Shown piece after piece: positions 14,044 through 23,272 of a stretch of DNA of 23,491 nucleotides. Source of the DNA: a virus; the IMG/VR virus record IMGVR_UViG_3300025413_000132, positions 1 to 23,491 of that record; one strand, 5' to 3'. The notes under the pieces are model-generated. The model was not told the DNA's origin and did not search any database. It saw only the letters and a program-made list of their open reading frames with translations. Numbering within the stretch: the stretch's first letter is position 1; each line of letters starts with the position of its first letter. The translations under genes and the position numbers were made by a program.

Positions 14044-14478
14044 TTATACCTTTAAGTATTCTAAAACTTCTGATGGTTTTAGAAAGCGTTCATTTTTATG
14101 CTCTGTTGCTTCCCACCAAAGAAACTGATTCTTTGCTAGGTGTTCTCTGCCTTTCAGCAAATTAATATTTTCAGGGTGTCCGTATATCAGTGGATCAGAA
14201 GGTCCCCACAATACTACACCTTTTATTCCTTCGTCCCAGCCAAGGTGTTGGAAAAAACTATCTACTCCAATCCATGTGCGGCATTGCCAAAGTAATTCCC
14301 TTAATGCACTAATCGGCAAGTCAGTTCTAAAATCAGAAACTAACTGTTTTTCGCCCGTTACGCCAACTTGTACAATTGGCTCGTCAATTAATTCAATCAA
14401 TTCTTCCCAATACGGATAATTCTTGGGATTTTGTTTGCCGTTACGTAGTTTTTGGGCGTATGGTGCTATGATAATCAT
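14044..14478 (-). CDS. GT9-like glycosyltransferase C-terminal half (144 aa)
   Basis: This reads like the donor-binding half of a heptosyltransferase (GT9). It has MIIIAPYAQKLRNGKQNPKN, then PYWEELIELI, a Val-Gly-Val-x-Gly-Glu turn (VQVGVTGE), ELLWQCRTWIGVDSFFQHLG near residue 85, and VVLWGPSDPLIYGHPENINL near residue 108. The GVDSF-H and WG..DP.I.GH motifs correspond to the GVDTG..H and GPT.P regions of GT9. No N-terminal Rossmann half is present in this gene, but the gene upstream ends in a segment resembling one and the two overlap as ATGA. The natural reading is a split enzyme, possibly a two-chain GT9. It could also work alone as a nucleotide-sugar binding partner. Confidence 0.7.
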   Translation of the reverse strand: MIIIAPYAQKLRNGKQNPKNYPYWEELIELIDEPIVQVGVTGEKQLVSDFRTDLPISALRELLWQCRTWIGVDSFFQHLGWDEGIKGVVLWGPSDPLIYGHPENINLLKGREHLAKNQFLWWEATEHKNERFLKPSEVLEYLKV

Positions 14479-15443
14479 AGGTATAACTTCCGATACGCGT
14501 CTTCTAAACTACCTTGCCACTTCCACTGGTCCATCTTTTTATAGATGTTCCAAATATCAATACCGCCAAACAACTGTTGCGCTTCTGCTATTGGTCTACC
14601 TTGAATTACTTCAGGATAGCATGTAAAAACAAGGGGATTGCGAACAGCAGGCAAAACGTGACTAAAGACAATATGATCGCCGAGACCGCAATTAAGAACG
14701 ACAATAGTATGGTCTTTGTACTTAAGGACATTTCTAAATATTTGCTCATCGTGCTCGTACATCTCCCGCTTTGTCTCACTGCGAATGCCACCTTGTGGGT
14801 TCTTCATGTGCCATGTTACTGCGTCAGGCACAACTAAAATCTGATACTTCTTTCGATGCAAACCGTATGTAAACAAGGTTTCTTCTCGATGGGCAACACG
14901 CGATAACCCAAGATTATAATCATAGACACCAGCGCGATACAAAAAAGTGCAGTGTAAATGTTCAACTTGTTTGACTCGTTCAATTTTGCCCCACTGGATG
15001 TTAGGTTCAGAATCAATGTTATCAATTGTACCAGATACTGCGCTGGTGTCTGGCAAGTAGGGCGGGGTTAACACCGAGCCACCTACCGCACCAACGCCAA
15101 CATCAAAGTGTTTAATTAAGTTCTCTAGTACGTTAGGCTCTGGTATGGCATCATCATCAACGCGCCAAACTAAATCATAACCCATACTATTTGCTCTTTG
15201 GTGGATGTGGTGTTGACCTTTTTTCTCAGCGTACGCCCACTCCCAAGCAATGTTTTTACTATTTAGTATCTGAAAGAAATACTGGTAAATCATTTCGTTG
15301 CGCATGTCCTGCGGCTCGTCATTGTCATCAAATATCACTAGCTTATCGGGTAAGCGAGTTTGATTAATGATGGCGTTTAATACGAGCGGTAGTGTGCTGT
15401 GATACCTACCCCGAGTTGCTACAGAGCAAAGTATTTTACTCAC
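14475..15443 (-). CDS. GT2 glycosyltransferase fused to GT9-like N-terminal segment (322 aa)
   Basis: Residues 1-235 are a GT-A fold transferase: CSVATRGRYHSTLPLVLNAI, FDDNDEP, the metal-binding VDDD at 95-98 (RVDDDAIPEPNVL), and the HREET acid region at 185-189, which resembles the catalytic end of GT2 enzymes. From about residue 245 a second unit begins (HTIVVLNCGLGDHIVFSHVL, PAVRNPLVFTCYPEVI) with the GLGDHI loop of the N-terminal Rossmann domain of GT9 enzymes. It runs about 75 residues to the stop, and the next gene supplies a GT9 C-terminal half. The start overlaps the preceding gene by 8 nt. The likely targets are virion proteins such as the adjacent fibres or host surface glycans; the sequence does not say which. 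Confidence 0.8.
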   Translation of the reverse strand: MSKILCSVATRGRYHSTLPLVLNAIINQTRLPDKLVIFDDNDEPQDMRNEMIYQYFFQILNSKNIAWEWAYAEKKGQHHIHQRANSMGYDLVWRVDDDAIPEPNVLENLIKHFDVGVGAVGGSVLTPPYLPDTSAVSGTIDNIDSEPNIQWGKIERVKQVEHLHCTFLYRAGVYDYNLGLSRVAHREETLFTYGLHRKKYQILVVPDAVTWHMKNPQGGIRSETKREMYEHDEQIFRNVLKYKDHTIVVLNCGLGDHIVFSHVLPAVRNPLVFTCYPEVIQGRPIAEAQQLFGGIDIWNIYKKMDQWKWQGSLEDAYRKLYL

Positions 15444-16713
15444 TAGCAGTCCACCTACAGATCATCAAATTGCAAGGGTTTGTTTCAGTAATATCTTGCG
15501 GCGTATCTGTAATTTCACCTTGCTCGTTAATATAATTAAACTCAAAGCTAGGGAAGTGACGCTCATTTAATCCATGCAACTTGTGATGTGGCCCCCAAAA
15601 ACCCGGCGGCTCATTCATTGGTACAGTAATTAGTAAACGCTTGCAGTGCTTTTTAAACTTTTCAACAATCTCTAAACCTTTGTCAAGGTGTTCAATTACT
15701 TCAAAGGCAACGATGGTATCGTACTGCCCCATTTCAAACTGATTGATATCAGCGCTAATAAAAGTATTATTCGCACCATTCCAATTTTGTTCCTTAGCTA
15801 CTTCTACAATAATCGGATCGTAATCAACTCCAGTGTATTCAATGTCATCTGGAAAAAACTGCCTGCCGTATCCGTTTGTGCAACCTAGCTCAAATATTTT
15901 GTTTCCAAGCAAATTCTTTGCTGCCCATTCGTATCTTGTTACTTCACGCGGGAATACTGTATCGCCCTTAAGAAATACTGCTCGCTCCCAGAAGTTTGAT
16001 AGGCGCCAGCGGTACCATTCAATGTTGTACTTCTTGGCTAACTTTAATGAGTTTAACAAGAAGATGTTATCCCAGCCCTGTACCAGATTGGCGTCGTGCA
16101 TGGTACCTTCGCCCTTGTGGTAGATTGGAAAACCGCCGGTATATTGCTCACCGTTCCACAGCTTCTCAAATACCTCTAGGACCTTAAATCCGGCTTTCTC
16201 AGCTTCAATACAGAACTCGGTGTCCTCACCCCCGCCTACGCCGTACTCTTCGTTTAGAAGCCCGATTTTGTCAAATACTTTTTTGTGTATCATTACACAG
16301 AAAAATATTGCAAAATACTTGCCAGCAGGCTCGGATAGACCTTTAATGATACAACTGATGCCACAATTTGGATCACTAAATGGTTTATCTAAAATTTCCA
16401 GCCATTGGTTCTTAGGCTGTTCTAACAACACAGTGTCGTTGTTTAGCAGGATAATTTTACCTGCGGTTGCTAACTTAATTCCAGCGTTTGTAGCTTTTGC
16501 ATAACCTAGTGGGCTGTCATCCCAAGCAATGACTAGGTTAGGGACTGTTGTTTTTACATAGTCTAAATATGCTTTGGTGTTATCTGTACACCCGTTGGCT
16601 GACACTACCAGCTCCACGCCAGCAAGGTCAGTATACTTAATAATTGACTCTATGCAGGGTTTTAAGTATTTCTCGCAGTTGTTGTAAGTGGGTATTACTA
16701 CGCTGTATTTCAT
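15436..16713 (-). CDS. GT2 glycosyltransferase-SAM methyltransferase fusion (425 aa)
   Basis: Residues 1-235 are a GT2 domain: VVIPTYNNCEKYLKPCIESI at 5-24, SANGCTDNT at 38-46, LGYAKATNAG then GKIILLNNDTVL with NND at 91-93 standing for DXD, and GGEDTEFCIEAEKAGF at 161-176. From about residue 270 a class I methyltransferase follows: motif I FELGCTNGYGR at 274-284, GVDYDP at 295-300, ISADINQF, and the motif AFEVIEHL at 336-343, then LLITVPMNEPPGFWGPHHKL at 360-379. Such fusions can add and methylate a sugar in one chain. It is the first gene after promoter copy 2, with an AAAGGA ribosome site, and overlaps the next gene by 8 nt. The acceptor is unknown; fibre or host glycans are candidates. 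Confidence 0.85.
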   Translation of the reverse strand: MKYSVVIPTYNNCEKYLKPCIESIIKYTDLAGVELVVSANGCTDNTKAYLDYVKTTVPNLVIAWDDSPLGYAKATNAGIKLATAGKIILLNNDTVLLEQPKNQWLEILDKPFSDPNCGISCIIKGLSEPAGKYFAIFFCVMIHKKVFDKIGLLNEEYGVGGGEDTEFCIEAEKAGFKVLEVFEKLWNGEQYTGGFPIYHKGEGTMHDANLVQGWDNIFLLNSLKLAKKYNIEWYRWRLSNFWERAVFLKGDTVFPREVTRYEWAAKNLLGNKIFELGCTNGYGRQFFPDDIEYTGVDYDPIIVEVAKEQNWNGANNTFISADINQFEMGQYDTIVAFEVIEHLDKGLEIVEKFKKHCKRLLITVPMNEPPGFWGPHHKLHGLNERHFPSFEFNYINEQGEITDTPQDITETNPCNLMICRWTASE

Positions 16714-16724
16714 GTTTTCCTTTA

Positions 16725-16740
16725 AGGTTTGTACAAACCT
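16725..16740 (-). promoter_or_regulatory. 16-nt perfect palindrome in the glycosyltransferase leader
   Basis: AGGTTTGTACAAACCT is a perfect inverted repeat between promoter copy 2 and the GT2 ribosome site (AAAGGA). In RNA it can form a 6-bp stem with a 4-nt loop; in DNA it could be an operator for a dimeric protein. It also follows AATATAGG, so a transcript starting there would begin almost with this hairpin. Confidence 0.5.
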
Positions 16741-16749
16741 ATATTACAT

Positions 16750-16767
16750 CATTACTTATACTAATGC
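16750..16767 (-). promoter_or_regulatory. Putative phage promoter, copy 2 (GCATTAGTATAAGTAATG)
   Basis: The minus strand reads GCATTAGTATAAGTAATG, directly after a strong terminator hairpin. GCATTAGTA is exact, and the following half (TAAGTAATG) departs from copies 1 and 3 (GTATAGG, ATATAAGG). A TATAGG does occur 13 nt farther on. It is the only promoter-like sequence between the adhesin gene and the glycosyltransferases. Confidence 0.5.
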
Positions 16768-16790
16768 AAAAAAGGCGTTGAAAACTGCCT
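16768..16790 (-). terminator. Terminator hairpin after the adhesin gene
   Basis: The minus strand gives AGGC, a bulged A, GTT, loop TTC, AAC, GCCT, then TTTTTT. Stem 16773-16790 has 7 bp with one bulge and is followed by at least five T's that lead into GCATTAGT of promoter copy 2. This is a canonical intrinsic terminator for the structural block upstream. Confidence 0.7.
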
Positions 16791-16821
16791 ATGCTACTAT
16801 TACTAATACGCAAATTCTTAA

Positions 16822-18750
16822 TTAACTGCCATTAAAGAACGCAAAAAAGTTGTAATTTGCTTTTGTTGAGCCACCTGGCGTATATACAATAAATATTACA
16901 CCTTGTGAGCCAGCACCACCATTATTGGTTACACCAGCAGTTGTAACGTTAGCACCAGTACCACCACCACCATAATTACCACTATTAAGACTAATACCAC
17001 CAGCCGCTAAACCACCTTTACCACCAGAACCACCAATGGTATTTGCAATATCTATTCCACTACCACCATTACCCGGTGGAGCATTAACACCACCAGCACC
17101 ACCACCACCAAATGTTCCACTTGCACCGCTAGTTGCTCCACCGCCTGTACCACTAAAATTATTACCACCATTGCCTTGTAATGCGGATGAAGCATTACCA
17201 CCAGCAGACCCACCACCATTACCACCACCACCACCACCAGCAATATTTCCAGCAGTTGTAGAGCCAAAGCCTGTTCCACCAGCACCACCTATTCCATTAG
17301 GGCCACCAGCACCACCACCACCACCAGCACCATATCCTTGTGAAGCTGTAGTTCCAAAAGAACCAGCGCCGCCAGCGCCGCCAGCATAAGTTCCTGTACC
17401 ACCAGCACCACCAGAAGATGATGGAGTTGTTGTGGCTGTTCCCCTAGAACCGCCACCAGCAGTATTAGTGGTATTAAATGTAGTTGAGCCGCCATTAGCA
17501 TTTGTTGATGAAGTTCCGATAGTGTACGGAATAGAAGCAGATGGAGTTAATGTTTGATTAGTTAAAACTGTATATCCACCACCGCCGCCACCGCCGCCAG
17601 CGGCTCGGTTATTTCCTGAAGCGGCAGAAGTTGCTCCGCTTCCACCAGCACCAATCATGTGAATTGTGTTATTAGAACTATTCCAATCAGAAGGGACAGT
17701 CCAAGAAGTGCCTGTGGTTAATATATAGGCTTTGCTTGTTCCAGCTATAAAAGCTATGCCAGCATTATTACCGCCATTGGTAGAGTTTGCGCCAGCATAG
17801 ACAAGGTAGGGGTTTGAAGCACCTAAAGTATAGGAAAAGTTAATATTTGTAATGGACATATAGTCCATAGATATTGTTGCACTACCCGTATAAACAAAAG
17901 TTCTTTGAGCGGCTCCAGTTAAAGTAACTATATTTCCAGCGCTTCCAGAAATACCCCAAGAGGCTAAAGTTATTCCAGAATTAAATGTAATTGTATAAGC
18001 GGCAGTTCTAGTGGAGCTTAATGATGCAATAGTGCTATTGTTAAAGTTTAAAATAACACCTGAAGTGCTACTTCCACCACCAATAACTATATTATTAAAA
18101 GTTAAAGTATTTGTCTGCCATGTTGGTGCGGCATTAGTCAATAAAATCGTTGATGTATTAGCGTTAAATGTTAATCCAGTTGTTGTTAAAGATGTCCAAG
18201 CACCAGCACCAGTTAATGTCCATGTGCTTGAACCCAAAGTTAATGTAGCTGTTCCAGTTCCAGAATAACTAAAAGAAGCTGATGTTAAAGCATAGTTTCC
18301 AGAATTAAAAGTTCCATTCGTTAATGTAACACCAGAATTTGTAAAAGCACTTCCTAATGTCCAACCACCACCCACTCCATTAAATGTAGTATTAGCTAAT
18401 GTTTTATTATTTGTTGTTATTGTGTTGCCAGTAGAGGTAGAAGTAAAAACAATATTAAATGCAGTAAATACAGTAGAACCACCTGAAGGCAAACTTAAAC
18501 TTGCATTTAATGTGCTTAATGTTCCGCTAAAAGTTAATGCTTGAGTAGCAGTAACAGTCATGTTGTTACAGGTAGCAGAGGATGCTGTAGTTGTTACAGT
18601 ACCTGTACCTGATGATGTATCAAAAATAACATCATCTGTTGAAGTTGGTGGGCCAACTAGTCCACCAGTACCACCAGAAGTTAATGCCCAGTTGGTTTTA
18701 GATGCGCTATTCCAAGTGCCTGCACCACCAACCCAATAGTACGTTGCCAT
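16822..18750 (-). CDS. Glycine-rich adhesin or tail fibre with beta-rich N-terminus (642 aa)
   Basis: Residues 1-45 (MATYYWVGGAGTWNSASKTN, then PPTSTDDVIFD) match a start seen in large beta-helical phage and bacterial surface proteins. Residues 50-345 are repeated Ser/Thr/Asn-rich strands, probably a right-handed beta-helix or similar. From about residue 346, TGTSWTVPSDW followed by HMIGAGGSG begins a glycine-rich domain that runs to about 620, with blocks such as AAGGGGGGGGYTV and GAGGGGGAGGPNG and no cysteine. This resembles the glycine-rich domains of tail-tip adhesins whose polyglycine II helices pack together, as in phage S16 gp38. It is likely a receptor-binding protein. The start overlaps the stop of the 53-residue partner gene as TAATG, and a terminator follows. 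Confidence 0.75.
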   Translation of the reverse strand: MATYYWVGGAGTWNSASKTNWALTSGGTGGLVGPPTSTDDVIFDTSSGTGTVTTTASSATCNNMTVTATQALTFSGTLSTLNASLSLPSGGSTVFTAFNIVFTSTSTGNTITTNNKTLANTTFNGVGGGWTLGSAFTNSGVTLTNGTFNSGNYALTSASFSYSGTGTATLTLGSSTWTLTGAGAWTSLTTTGLTFNANTSTILLTNAAPTWQTNTLTFNNIVIGGGSSTSGVILNFNNSTIASLSSTRTAAYTITFNSGITLASWGISGSAGNIVTLTGAAQRTFVYTGSATISMDYMSITNINFSYTLGASNPYLVYAGANSTNGGNNAGIAFIAGTSKAYILTTGTSWTVPSDWNSSNNTIHMIGAGGSGATSAASGNNRAAGGGGGGGGYTVLTNQTLTPSASIPYTIGTSSTNANGGSTTFNTTNTAGGGSRGTATTTPSSSGGAGGTGTYAGGAGGAGSFGTTASQGYGAGGGGGAGGPNGIGGAGGTGFGSTTAGNIAGGGGGGNGGGSAGGNASSALQGNGGNNFSGTGGGATSGASGTFGGGGAGGVNAPPGNGGSGIDIANTIGGSGGKGGLAAGGISLNSGNYGGGGTGANVTTAGVTNNGGAGSQGVIFIVYTPGGSTKANYNFFAFFNGS

Positions 18751-18920: not shown

Positions 18921-20588
18921 TTATGCTTGTTGAGCCAAAGCAATAACATCCCAAAAAGTTGCCGCAGTATTGTATATGCAACCAACATACAATATTTTGG
19001 AAATAGTTGTTGAAGAAGGCAAAGTTGTTCCTACAATTCTATATCCACCGCTTGAAGTTGTCCAAGTCAAAGTTTGTGATGTTCCGTTATCCAATATACG
19101 AATAATTAACTTTTGACCATCAACGGGGCTTCCGGTTGGTGCATTGATTGTCAAACCTGTAGCAAGGGCAGTTACTTCATATTGGTCTGTAGTTCCTGCG
19201 TTTGGTGTTATTGAAGCCGCACTAGTTGTTGATGTTATTCTTGGTGCTACATAGGTATTTGTGCCAGAGTAACCAGATATGCCACTGTAGCCAGAGATAC
19301 CAGAGAATCCGCTGTAGCCAGAGATACCAGAGAATCCGCTGTAGCCAGAGATACCAGAGAATCCGCTGTAGCCAGAGATACCAGAGAATCCGCTGTAGCC
19401 AGAGATACCAGAGAATCCGCTGTAGCCAGAGATGCCAGAGAATCCAGAAATGCCAGAGTAGCCACTAATACCAGAAAAGCCACTAATACCAGAAAAGCCA
19501 CTGTAACCAGAGATACCAGAAAAGCCACTATATCCAGAGATACCAGAAAAACCACTGTAACCAGAGATACCAGATGCGCCGCTATATCCAGAGATACCAG
19601 AAAAACCACTGTAACCAGAGAAGCCACTGTAGCCAGAGATACCGCTGTAGCCAGATAGACCAGAACCACTATAGCCACTAATACCAGAGTAGCCACTATA
19701 GCCACTAATACCAGAGTAGCCACTATAGCCACTAATACCAGAGTAGCCACTATAGCCACTAATACCAGAGTATCCACTATATCCAGAGATACCGCTGTAG
19801 CCACTATACCCAGAGATGCCAGAAACGCCACTATAGCCACTAATACCAGAGTAGCCACTATAGCCACTAATACCAGAGTATCCACTATATCCAGAGATAC
19901 CGCTGTAGCCACTATACCCAGAGACACCAGAGAAGCCACTGTAGCCAGAGATACCGCTGTAGCCAGATAGACCAGAACCACTATACCCCGATACGCCACT
20001 ATATCCTGATGTGCCACTGTAGCCTGATAATCCTAAACCACTGTAGCCACTGTACCCAGACACGCCAGAACCACTATAGCCAGAAATGCCGCTATAACCA
20101 GAAATGCCACTGTAGCCTGATATACCGCTGTAACCTGATATACCGCTGTAACCTGATATACCGCTGTAACCTGATATACCGCTGTAACCTGATAATCCTA
20201 GTCCACTGTAACCTGATATACCACTGTAGCCCGAGATGCCAGAACCACTGTACCCAGAAACGCCACTGTATCCGGAGACGCCACTGTAACCAGACTTGCC
20301 ACTGTAACCAGAAATACCGGAGTAGCCACTAAAACCAGATAGTCCAGAATAGCCAGACCAGCCAGAAATAGGGCCAATAACTTGTTGCGTACCGTCGCTG
20401 TAATAAATTACTAAATCGCCGTTCGACGGAACGTAAACAATTGTAGTGATCAGTTTGCCGGGCGACGCAGCATTGGCAATCTGTGACACAGACGCCTGCT
20501 TTGTTACTCCGTTTTGTACCAGCGGTACCTGTTCGTTACCAGTTAAGGTGATCGCAACAGGCAGCTGCGTTATCGACTGATCTGCCAT
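18921..20588 (-). CDS. Collagen-like tail fibre with Gly-X-Ser repeats (555 aa)
   Basis: Residues 1-75 form an N-terminal domain (MADQSITQLPVAITLTGNEQ, VPLVQNGVTKQASVSQIANA) that is a frequent start of phage fibres. Residues 76-443 are about 120 triplets of Gly-X-Ser with X mostly Tyr, Ile, Phe, Val or Leu, occasionally broken by Gly-Ser-Gly. The last 112 residues are a C-terminal head (NTYVAPRITSTTSAASITPN, GQKLIIRILDNGTSQTLTW, YVGCIYNTAATFWDVIALA) widespread in phage fibres. A trimeric collagen-like shaft with globular ends is the natural reading. Proline is absent from the triplets, so stability would not rest on hydroxyproline. The start at 20588 has no clear Shine-Dalgarno site. The DNA contains perfect 27-nt repeats. 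Confidence 0.9.
   Translation of the reverse strand: MADQSITQLPVAITLTGNEQVPLVQNGVTKQASVSQIANAASPGKLITTIVYVPSNGDLVIYYSDGTQQVIGPISGWSGYSGLSGFSGYSGISGYSGKSGYSGVSGYSGVSGYSGSGISGYSGISGYSGLGLSGYSGISGYSGISGYSGISGYSGISGYSGISGYSGISGYSGSGVSGYSGYSGLGLSGYSGTSGYSGVSGYSGSGLSGYSGISGYSGFSGVSGYSGYSGISGYSGYSGISGYSGYSGISGYSGVSGISGYSGYSGISGYSGYSGISGYSGYSGISGYSGYSGISGYSGYSGISGYSGSGLSGYSGISGYSGFSGYSGFSGISGYSGASGISGYSGFSGISGYSGFSGISGYSGFSGISGFSGISGYSGISGFSGISGYSGFSGISGYSGFSGISGYSGFSGISGYSGFSGISGYSGFSGISGYSGISGYSGTNTYVAPRITSTTSAASITPNAGTTDQYEVTALATGLTINAPTGSPVDGQKLIIRILDNGTSQTLTWTTSSGGYRIVGTTLPSSTTISKILYVGCIYNTAATFWDVIALAQQA
19300..19434. repeat. Five 27-nt tandem repeats in the collagen-like gene
   Basis: Five consecutive 27-nt units start at 19300, 19327, 19354, 19381 and 19408 with only the last base of the last copy differing. 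Each encodes nine residues (three Gly-X-Ser triplets), so a gain or loss of units keeps the frame. Their near-identity at the DNA level, beyond what protein repetition requires, points to recent duplication or slippage. Confidence 0.85.
19674..19924. repeat. Second 27-nt repeat array with a ~98-nt duplicated block
   Basis: Four 27-nt units (19674, 19701, 19728 and a one-base variant at 19755) are followed by two more at 19836 and 19863. A block from about 19719 to 19816 recurs exactly at 19827-19924, offset 108 nt (four units). This indicates nested duplication that keeps the reading frame. Confidence 0.8.
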
Positions 20589-22757: not shown

Positions 22758-22776
22758 TTAGGCAAAAACGCCCTAA
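22758..22776 (-). terminator. Hairpin at HNH stop codon, before promoter copy 1
   Basis: Minus strand TTAGGGC, loop GTTTTT, GCCTAA makes a 6-bp stem with a bulged G that includes the HNH TAG stop. The stretch after it (TAGTTTGC) is only moderately T-rich. As a terminator it is weaker than the copies at 8 and 16.8 kb, but it occupies the same place in the hairpin-then-GCATTAGT arrangement. Confidence 0.45.
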
Positions 22777-23225
22777 ACGGTGTATTTGTTTGACTTTTTG
22801 ACGTTTTCAACGCCGGGGATAACTCTAAGGTTGGAAAACACATGTAAACCAGAGACATTCTTGCCCTGCAAGGGAATAATGTGGTCTACATGGTAAGGGG
22901 TACCAGATGCTTGGGAAAGCATGGCAGCTACTTGATATTTTGCCACAATAAGGTGGGCGTCAGGATCCCAAGATGGGGTTCGTTGTAGTTGTACAGCACG
23001 GCGTTTGCATTCCAAAGCAGCTTTAACTGGTTTGTTATTTTTGTTCCATTTACGATTGTATGCGTTGTGCTGTTCCCTATTTTCTTCACGCCATTTTGTT
23101 TTTCTAGCAGCAGCTTGTTCGGGGTTTGCTAAATCTCTGGCTCGAGCGCGTTCTTTGGTAAGCTCTTTATTTCGCTCATACCATTCTTTTTTAAGCCGTT
23201 TTGCGTTTTCTAAATCTCTAGCCAT
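22773..23225 (-). CDS. Free-standing HNH endonuclease (150 aa)
   Basis: The C-terminal third carries an HNH nuclease: PYHVDHIIPLQGKNVSGLHV, then FSNLRVIPGVENVKKSNK, with His112, Asp114, His115 and the usual downstream asparagines. The N-terminal 80 residues are a long, charged, probably helical DNA-binding segment (NAKRLKKEWYERNKELTKER, EENREQHNAYNRKWNKNNK). I choose ATG 23225, not a TTG at 23252, because the TTG lies inside the capsid-gene terminator hairpin. No Shine-Dalgarno site precedes the ATG, so it is poorly or leaderlessly translated. It sits alone between the capsid and the next virion gene, as homing endonucleases typically do. It may nick phages lacking it; a packaging-nuclease role is less likely at this position. 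Confidence 0.85.
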   Translation of the reverse strand: MARDLENAKRLKKEWYERNKELTKERARARDLANPEQAAARKTKWREENREQHNAYNRKWNKNNKPVKAALECKRRAVQLQRTPSWDPDAHLIVAKYQVAAMLSQASGTPYHVDHIIPLQGKNVSGLHVFSNLRVIPGVENVKKSNKYTV

Positions 23226-23241
23226 ATAAATATTATAATTG

Positions 23242-23272
23242 AAAAAGCCCAACCTTGTGGGCTGGGCTTTTT
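23242..23272 (-). terminator. Rho-independent terminator after the capsid gene
   Basis: AAAAAGCCCA and TGGGCTTTTT pair perfectly over 10 bp around an 11-nt loop. The symmetric A and T tracts make it active on either strand, but here it follows the capsid stop codon at 23294 by 21 nt. It lies directly before the HNH gene, so the nuclease would be expressed only by read-through or from a promoter of its own. Confidence 0.85.

Follow-up and report, generated by a model that had tools for sequence, protein, structure and literature searches.

In the chlorovirus PBCV-1, the methyltransferase domain of A064R caps the end of the glycan on the major capsid protein (PMC9614988). The glycosyltransferases of aquatic phages are usually interpreted as agents of lipopolysaccharide (LPS) remodelling or DNA protection (PMC7029224, PMC10202952, PMC12619734), and the locus described here points to a concrete alternative substrate, a collagen-like tract. 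The locus is a block of three genes (gene 1, gene 2 and gene 3; Table 1) on IMG/VR record IMGVR_UViG_3300025413_000132 from an environmental phage; the entire record of 23,491 bases constitutes the window analysed. New here is the observation that this block travels with genes for collagen-like (Gly-Tyr/Ile/Phe-Ser)n proteins. With slightly better than even confidence, we read the block as a phage-borne, cytoplasmic protein-glycosylation kit acting on the phage's own collagen-like fibres, and we infer both its target and its chemistry. No link between collagen-like fibres and a phage block of glycosyltransferase and methyltransferase genes came up in a literature search with thin coverage of subscription journals.

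Gene 1 heads the block. Its open reading frame (ORF) runs on the minus strand, and the plus strand of 15436-16713 is rich in stop codons when read forward. The N-terminal half carries PF00535 (residues 4-117, E 1.7e-14, 54.5 bits against a cut-off of 23.3) together with DxD-like and ED-like motifs, which assigns it to the GT2 family. The C-terminal half matches five Pfam families (Methyltransf_12, 11, 25, 23 and 31 at residues 265-367, E 7e-9 to 2e-6, all above the curated cut-offs) and contains a Gly-rich motif I, placing it among the class I S-adenosylmethionine (SAM) methyltransferases. The fusion of a GT-A/GT2 domain with a methyltransferase, described in an earlier note on this DNA, is thus borne out, and its motifs NND (N91-N92-D93), ED (E163-D164), FELGCTNGYG and AFEVIEHL are all present. 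In an alignment of 27 relatives, N91, N92, D93, E163 and D164 are nearly invariant (at least 90%) and E275, G277, C278, G281, Y282 and G283 are invariant (27 rows). Relatives of gene 1 are encoded by 231 stretches of viral contigs. The 80 best of these were retrieved; at 95% identity their gene 1 proteins fall into 40 clusters, many loci being near-copies. In seven of the 80, from the jumbo-type records L061, L068, L071, L073, L076, L077 and L081, gene 1 extends to 661-668 aa and has an extra domain at its C-terminus, which is an FkbM-like methyltransferase in L068, the sole one scanned (PF05050, 5.2e-11). Several jumbo-type relatives also carry a second, stand-alone GT2 copy directly upstream.

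Gene 2 likewise falls in the GT2 family (PF00535, E 4.9e-6, 27.0 bits against the cut-off of 23.3). Its relatives share invariant DDD, REET, WH and GxGDH motifs, the last within the extra C-terminal domain. The predicted structure (pLDDT 90.3) matches GT-A structures, with polypeptide GalNAc-transferases at the top of those listed (VIA Z 18.4), tied with a chondroitin polymerase and others. Pfam gave nothing for gene 3 at 0.01. The predicted structure of gene 3 (pLDDT 79.7, residues 93-97 below 50) aligned at VIA Z 10.2-10.9 with heptosyltransferase II, TibC, WaaC and a GT9 protein, in each case over the C-terminal half, and among the chains listed UDP-GlcNAc 2-epimerases tie in this range; a Foldseek search ranked TibC first (E 5e-3, probability 1.0), with nothing below 0.001. 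In terms of a GT-B fold with its two Rossmann-like halves, gene 3 fits the C-terminal half of GT9 enzymes but fits the epimerases equally, and the putative N-terminal half within gene 2 is a reading by eye. A profile of gene 3 reached WaaC at E 0.04, a weak sequence link to GT9. The GT9 domain PF01075 stayed below its cut-off in a relative in which gene 2 and gene 3 are fused (L399, 14.7 bits against 22), and phmmer found no sequence link between the fused part of this protein and GT9 structures. With 144 aa against the roughly 370-390 residues of TibC chains, gene 3 is too short for the full-length catalytic proteins of the TibC family.

The composition and order of the block are conserved. 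In the window, genes 1, 2 and 3 overlap by 8 and 4 nt, and the same overlaps recur in most of the 80 relatives. Gene 2 follows gene 1 in all 80 (cut by the contig end in seven), and gene 3 comes next in 72, the remaining eight contigs ending inside or soon after gene 2. The block is flanked by collagen-like and Gly-rich genes upstream and by tail-fibre-like genes downstream (PHROGs), so that the earlier note was right to see three glycan genes set apart as a block with a fibre region on either side. A search of 50,697 annotated phage records at E 1e-5 recovered gene 2 or gene 3 from phage P19250A alone, where a stand-alone methyltransferase of 209 aa is followed by gene 2 and gene 3. P19250A is a siphovirus of freshwater LD28 methylotrophs (PMC8163748), and its recorded host is Methylophilaceae bacterium IMCC19250. 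Its collagen-like protein (P19250A_0023) is 1201 aa long. Phage Venkman, named in PMC8163748 and considered as a candidate near relative of P19250A without the block, was absent from the tail-protein matches listed (12 of 857).

More distant records vary in their modules: L399 has a single ORF for gene 2 and gene 3 together, L401 a methyltransferase with gene 2, L398 a GT2 domain, a methyltransferase and gene 2, L397 a GT2 domain with gene 2, and L396 the series GT2-GT2-methyltransferase-gene 2. Gene 2 and gene 3 are retained, with the other modules variable, in 10 of 11 such stretches; the eleventh (L406) shows nothing beyond a partial match to gene 2. A search of 84,980 species of bacteria and archaea with two conserved peptide patterns, which detects solely relatives retaining those peptides, returned four relatives. 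Three of them (L083, L084 and L085) carry the block on contigs that are phage-like by eye, and these contigs are binned in metagenome-assembled genomes (MAGs) labelled Mucilaginibacter, Nitrosotalea and Opitutae. They are probably mis-binned, and hence the MAG labels are uninformative on the host. The fourth (L086, from a Syntrophobacteraceae MAG) was dropped as a block: it shares 22% identity over the GT2 half only, and its neighbours are other glycan-type genes by eye.

The association with the collagen-like tract is seen at several scales. At least five tract motifs lie on the block strand in 59 of the 80 loci, and in 51 of these 59 the nearest motif is no more than 3 kb upstream; over all 80 loci, 3669 motifs were counted on the block strand and none on the opposite one. 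Where at least 3.5 kb of upstream sequence was available, the tract was present in 39 of 43 loci (22 of 25 by cluster). Among whole block-bearing records of at least 15 kb (27 contigs from the best 80 of 231, plus P19250A; n = 28), 25 contain at least nine matches to a longer tract pattern (range 9-135), P19250A having 25, and in several records the tract genes directly touch the block. Of the three records short of this, L031 and L037 are contigs cut no more than 0.6 kb upstream of the block, and the third is L068. Random viral contigs of at least 15 kb (39 used, from 80 listed of at least 120 stretches) had gene 2 in none of 39 and two or more tract matches in none of 39, with one single match. 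A matched set was formed by contigs sharing the TIG-domain gene of the window (71 loci, 34 on contigs of at least 15 kb); three of the 34 were dropped as already among the block relatives, leaving 31 records. Block and tract were found together in 12 of these, the block only in none, the tract only in one and neither in 18 (Fisher 9e-8); by cluster the counts were 9, 0, 0 and 12 (Fisher 3e-6). The contig of the single tract-only record (L226) ends 1.3 kb past its last match, and one of the records with neither has a single match.

A number of observations weigh against a fibre-directed function of the block. In the tree of the shared TIG-domain gene, which is weakly resolved, the block state needs to change only four times, and the Fisher values therefore overstate the evidence; the better argument is the spread of the association over unlike phages, including P19250A and the jumbo record L073. 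The random controls were unmatched by habitat, and the structure models of gene 2 and gene 3 rest on alignments of 26 rows. With 3.8-8 kb of upstream sequence available, L060 and the jumbo-type L061, L068 and L073 show no tract upstream of the block, and L068, a 200-kb record, is without the tract overall, whereas its 335-kb relative L073 has 135 matches elsewhere in the record. Conversely, gene 2 occurs in 20 of 45 tract-bearing contigs of at least 15 kb (from 80 listed of at least 120 stretches) and is absent from 25, although some of the 45 may be fragments; it is near full-length in 19 of the 20, the other one, G035, having a partial copy without gene 3 in the 9 kb fetched (L406). GT2 genes were not enriched in the block-less tract contigs (5 of 25 above cut-off, against 5 of 39 random contigs and 6 of 19 matched negatives). 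The tract can thus do without the block. Nor did the make-up of the triplets differ between 22 loci that have the block and 21 that lack it, Ser occupying the third position in 86% of triplets in block-bearing loci and 83% in block-less ones, so that no modified residue is singled out.

Some features of the block-less contigs deserve mention in their own right. Very long (G-Y-S)n proteins, reaching 3373 aa in a frame left open by the edge of the contig, occur on several of them (e.g. L095, L113, L134, L141 and L144), and some carry many tract genes consecutively. Among the block-less contigs of the matched set, six of 19 (G091, G092, G104, G108, G112 and G113) have another GT2 gene above the Pfam cut-off, in open frames of 253-380 aa.

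Which molecule the enzymes act on was weighed between the tract and three other substrates. The first of these is another virion protein, such as the adjoining Gly-rich protein, the capsid or the tail, with the tract a mere co-moving neighbour. The direct neighbour of the block in the window is indeed the Gly-rich gene and not a tract gene, tract genes also exist without the block, and the matched set contains few independent changes; yet tract and block occur together in phages as unlike as P19250A and the 335-kb record, and the tract touches the block in several genomes. We consider this explanation unlikely, albeit the least unlikely of the three. The second is the LPS or capsule of the infected cell, remodelled in order to block superinfection or the re-adsorption of phages to debris. 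GT2 enzymes of this kind mostly make surface glycans, gene 1 has weak matches to a GtrB-like family of O-antigen conversion (PHROGs, E 7.5e-5) and to glycosyltransferase families, and host-surface remodelling is the account given by the authors for marine phage glycosyltransferases (PMC7029224). In contrast, the block sits among fibre genes and is tied to one fibre repeat, it has no flippase-like gene, and no obvious membrane segment was found in its three proteins (highest 19-residue hydropathy 1.33, 1.41 and 0.60). These features make a host-surface role improbable, to a marginally greater degree than a role on another virion protein. Glycosylation of the phage DNA as protection from host nucleases, a frequent proposal for phage glycosyltransferases (PMC12619734, PMC10202952), appears very improbable given the position of the block among fibre genes and the lack of any DNA-modification gene in the proteins scanned, which were part of the window's genes.

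The lack of a membrane segment together with the position among fibre genes makes a soluble phage protein the simplest substrate. The earlier note had offered two roles, glycosylation and capping of the phage's own fibres or remodelling of host surface glycan against superinfection. The former is favoured by association, namely by the co-occurrence with the tract, the adjacency, the phage-like contigs and the absence of an obvious membrane segment, while the latter drew no positive support from the analysis. For the proposed kit acting on collagen-like fibres, the following course may be envisaged. The kit would act probably late in infection. Gene 2 and gene 3 would form a core that starts the chain by placing one or more sugars on the side chains that recur along the tract, most likely Ser and possibly Tyr, with the C-terminal domain of gene 2 and gene 3 together replacing a single GT-B (GT9-like) enzyme in split form. 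Gene 1 would then extend the chain by a sugar through its GT2 half, and its methyltransferase half would O-methylate this sugar and so cap the chain. The capped glycan might stiffen or shield the fibre, or tune host binding. In a broader and more tentative form, for which our confidence is clearly below even, a modular, exchangeable kit built around a split GT-B enzyme would O-glycosylate and O-methyl-cap (Gly-aromatic-Ser)n fibres across dissimilar phages with sizes between 39 kb and more than 300 kb, and bacterial viruses would thereby have their own equivalent of the glycosylation of collagen and mucin. If true, phages would glycosylate collagen-like proteins with bacterial-type parts, and the acceptors would be short GYS triplets, which are easily synthesised. 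Since P19250A has a named bacterial host, the claim is testable on virions.

Upstream of gene 1, the earlier note had placed a promoter module belonging to the block. The 108 nt in question (16714-16821) hold a terminator-like hairpin, a -10-like hexamer (~16741-16748) and a perfect inverted repeat, the latter located between the hexamer and the ribosome-binding site (~16719-16723). At the usual spacing from the hexamer, a start site would fall within the inverted repeat. A sigma-70 consensus promoter was sought without success on the minus strand of 16714-16821, and promoter-like sites in the region (22) did not exceed the 27.3 expected by chance. In the window, the inverted repeat has one match at up to three mismatches, with 0.17 expected. 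It recurs at -26 to -28 in the nearest relatives, its arms changing symmetrically; of the 81 loci whose upstream sequence was long enough, 25 have it, with 15 distinct upstream sequences, and one class has a G-T pair. Over 406 loci (3.87 Mb, many near-copies), 155 of which have a gene 1 start with upstream sequence, all 51 copies of the degenerate repeat A[AG]GTTYGTAYRAAC[CT]T, with covarying arms, lie no more than 70 nt upstream of gene 1. The conservation of the repeat and its occurrence solely upstream of gene 1 support a putative regulatory element of the block's own in the nearest clade, and the repeat may work either as an operator in the DNA or as a hairpin in the RNA. It is missing upstream in P19250A and the distant relatives. 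The promoter module of the earlier note accordingly stands for the nearest clade by comparison, and falls short in its match to the sigma-70 consensus and in its reach beyond that clade.

The remaining features of the window bear on the candidate substrates. The product of 18921-20588 matches the PHROGs families tail fiber protein (2e-50) and collagen like minor tail (2e-28). Neither PHROGs nor Pfam gave a match for the Gly-rich protein that adjoins the block.

Table 1 Features of the window, with their coordinates and the basis of their assignment
Feature	Position	Strand	Basis
Gene 1, GT2 (residues ~1-225) and class I SAM methyltransferase (~226-425), 425 aa	15436..16713	-	ORF, Pfam, motifs in 27 relatives
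Gene 2, second GT-A glycosyltransferase, 322 aa, GTG start, extra C-terminal alpha/beta domain (~244-322)	14475..15443	-	Pfam, motifs, model
Gene 3, lone GT9-type (GT-B) C-terminal domain, 144 aa	14044..14478	-	Predicted structure; weak sequence link
Inverted repeat, 6-nt arms, 4-nt centre, entire 16 nt self-complementary	16725..16740	-	Sequence, comparison
Terminator-like hairpin, one bulged base, six T	16768..16789	-	Sequence and fold; not listed by a bulge-free scan
Gly-rich protein, 642 aa, adjoins the block, possible other substrate	16822..18750	-	Sequence
Collagen-like (Gly-[Tyr/Ile/Phe]-Ser)n fibre protein, 555 aa, proposed substrate	18921..20588	-	Sequence, PHROGs
Endonuclease VII-like protein, TTG start, near window end	22773..23252	-	PHROGs 5.7e-11

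Serotype-converting gtr clusters of temperate phages consist of membrane-bound GtrB and GtrC together with the flippase GtrA. The block resembles them in its phage GT2 enzyme, with the weak GtrB-like match of gene 1; having no obvious membrane segments and no further, flippase-like gene, and lying among fibre genes, it does not constitute such a cluster. TibC and the autotransporter heptosyltransferases have a GT9-like GT-B fold, and TibC acts in the cytoplasm, where it modifies serine residues of repeat-containing surface proteins (PMC4358343); it is the best Foldseek match of gene 3. TibC is, however, one full-length enzyme that forms a dodecamer (PMC4358343), whereas gene 3 would correspond to a C-terminal half, to which other GT9 enzymes fit equally. 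In mycobacteriophages, phage-linked glycans are reported on virion proteins (Freeman et al. 2023, as cited in PMC12619734), the targets described there being the capsid and the tail tube. Closer in substrate to the proposed kit is the Mimivirus collagen glucosyltransferase L230, a virus-encoded enzyme that glycosylates collagen-like virus proteins (PMC9614988). L230 uses hydroxylysine as acceptor and has its own lysyl hydroxylase domain (PMC9614988), in contrast to the Ser-rich tract described here. Lysine-type glycosylation as in L230 and COLGALT finds no counterpart in the tract, in which Ser fills 86% of third positions and Lys is not among the commonest first or second choices listed for the triplets; no search for a hydroxylase was made. 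In its domains, the block can be compared with A064R of PBCV-1, considered together with A061L; A064R is a virus-encoded enzyme with glycosyltransferase domains and a methyltransferase domain (PMC9614988). A064R differs in that it belongs to an algal virus, joins two glycosyltransferase domains and a methyltransferase in one protein, and serves an N-glycan of the capsid protein with no tie to collagen-like proteins. Virus-encoded glycosylation of virions is thus already known, and the unusual part of the present locus would be the collagen-like tract as its putative substrate.
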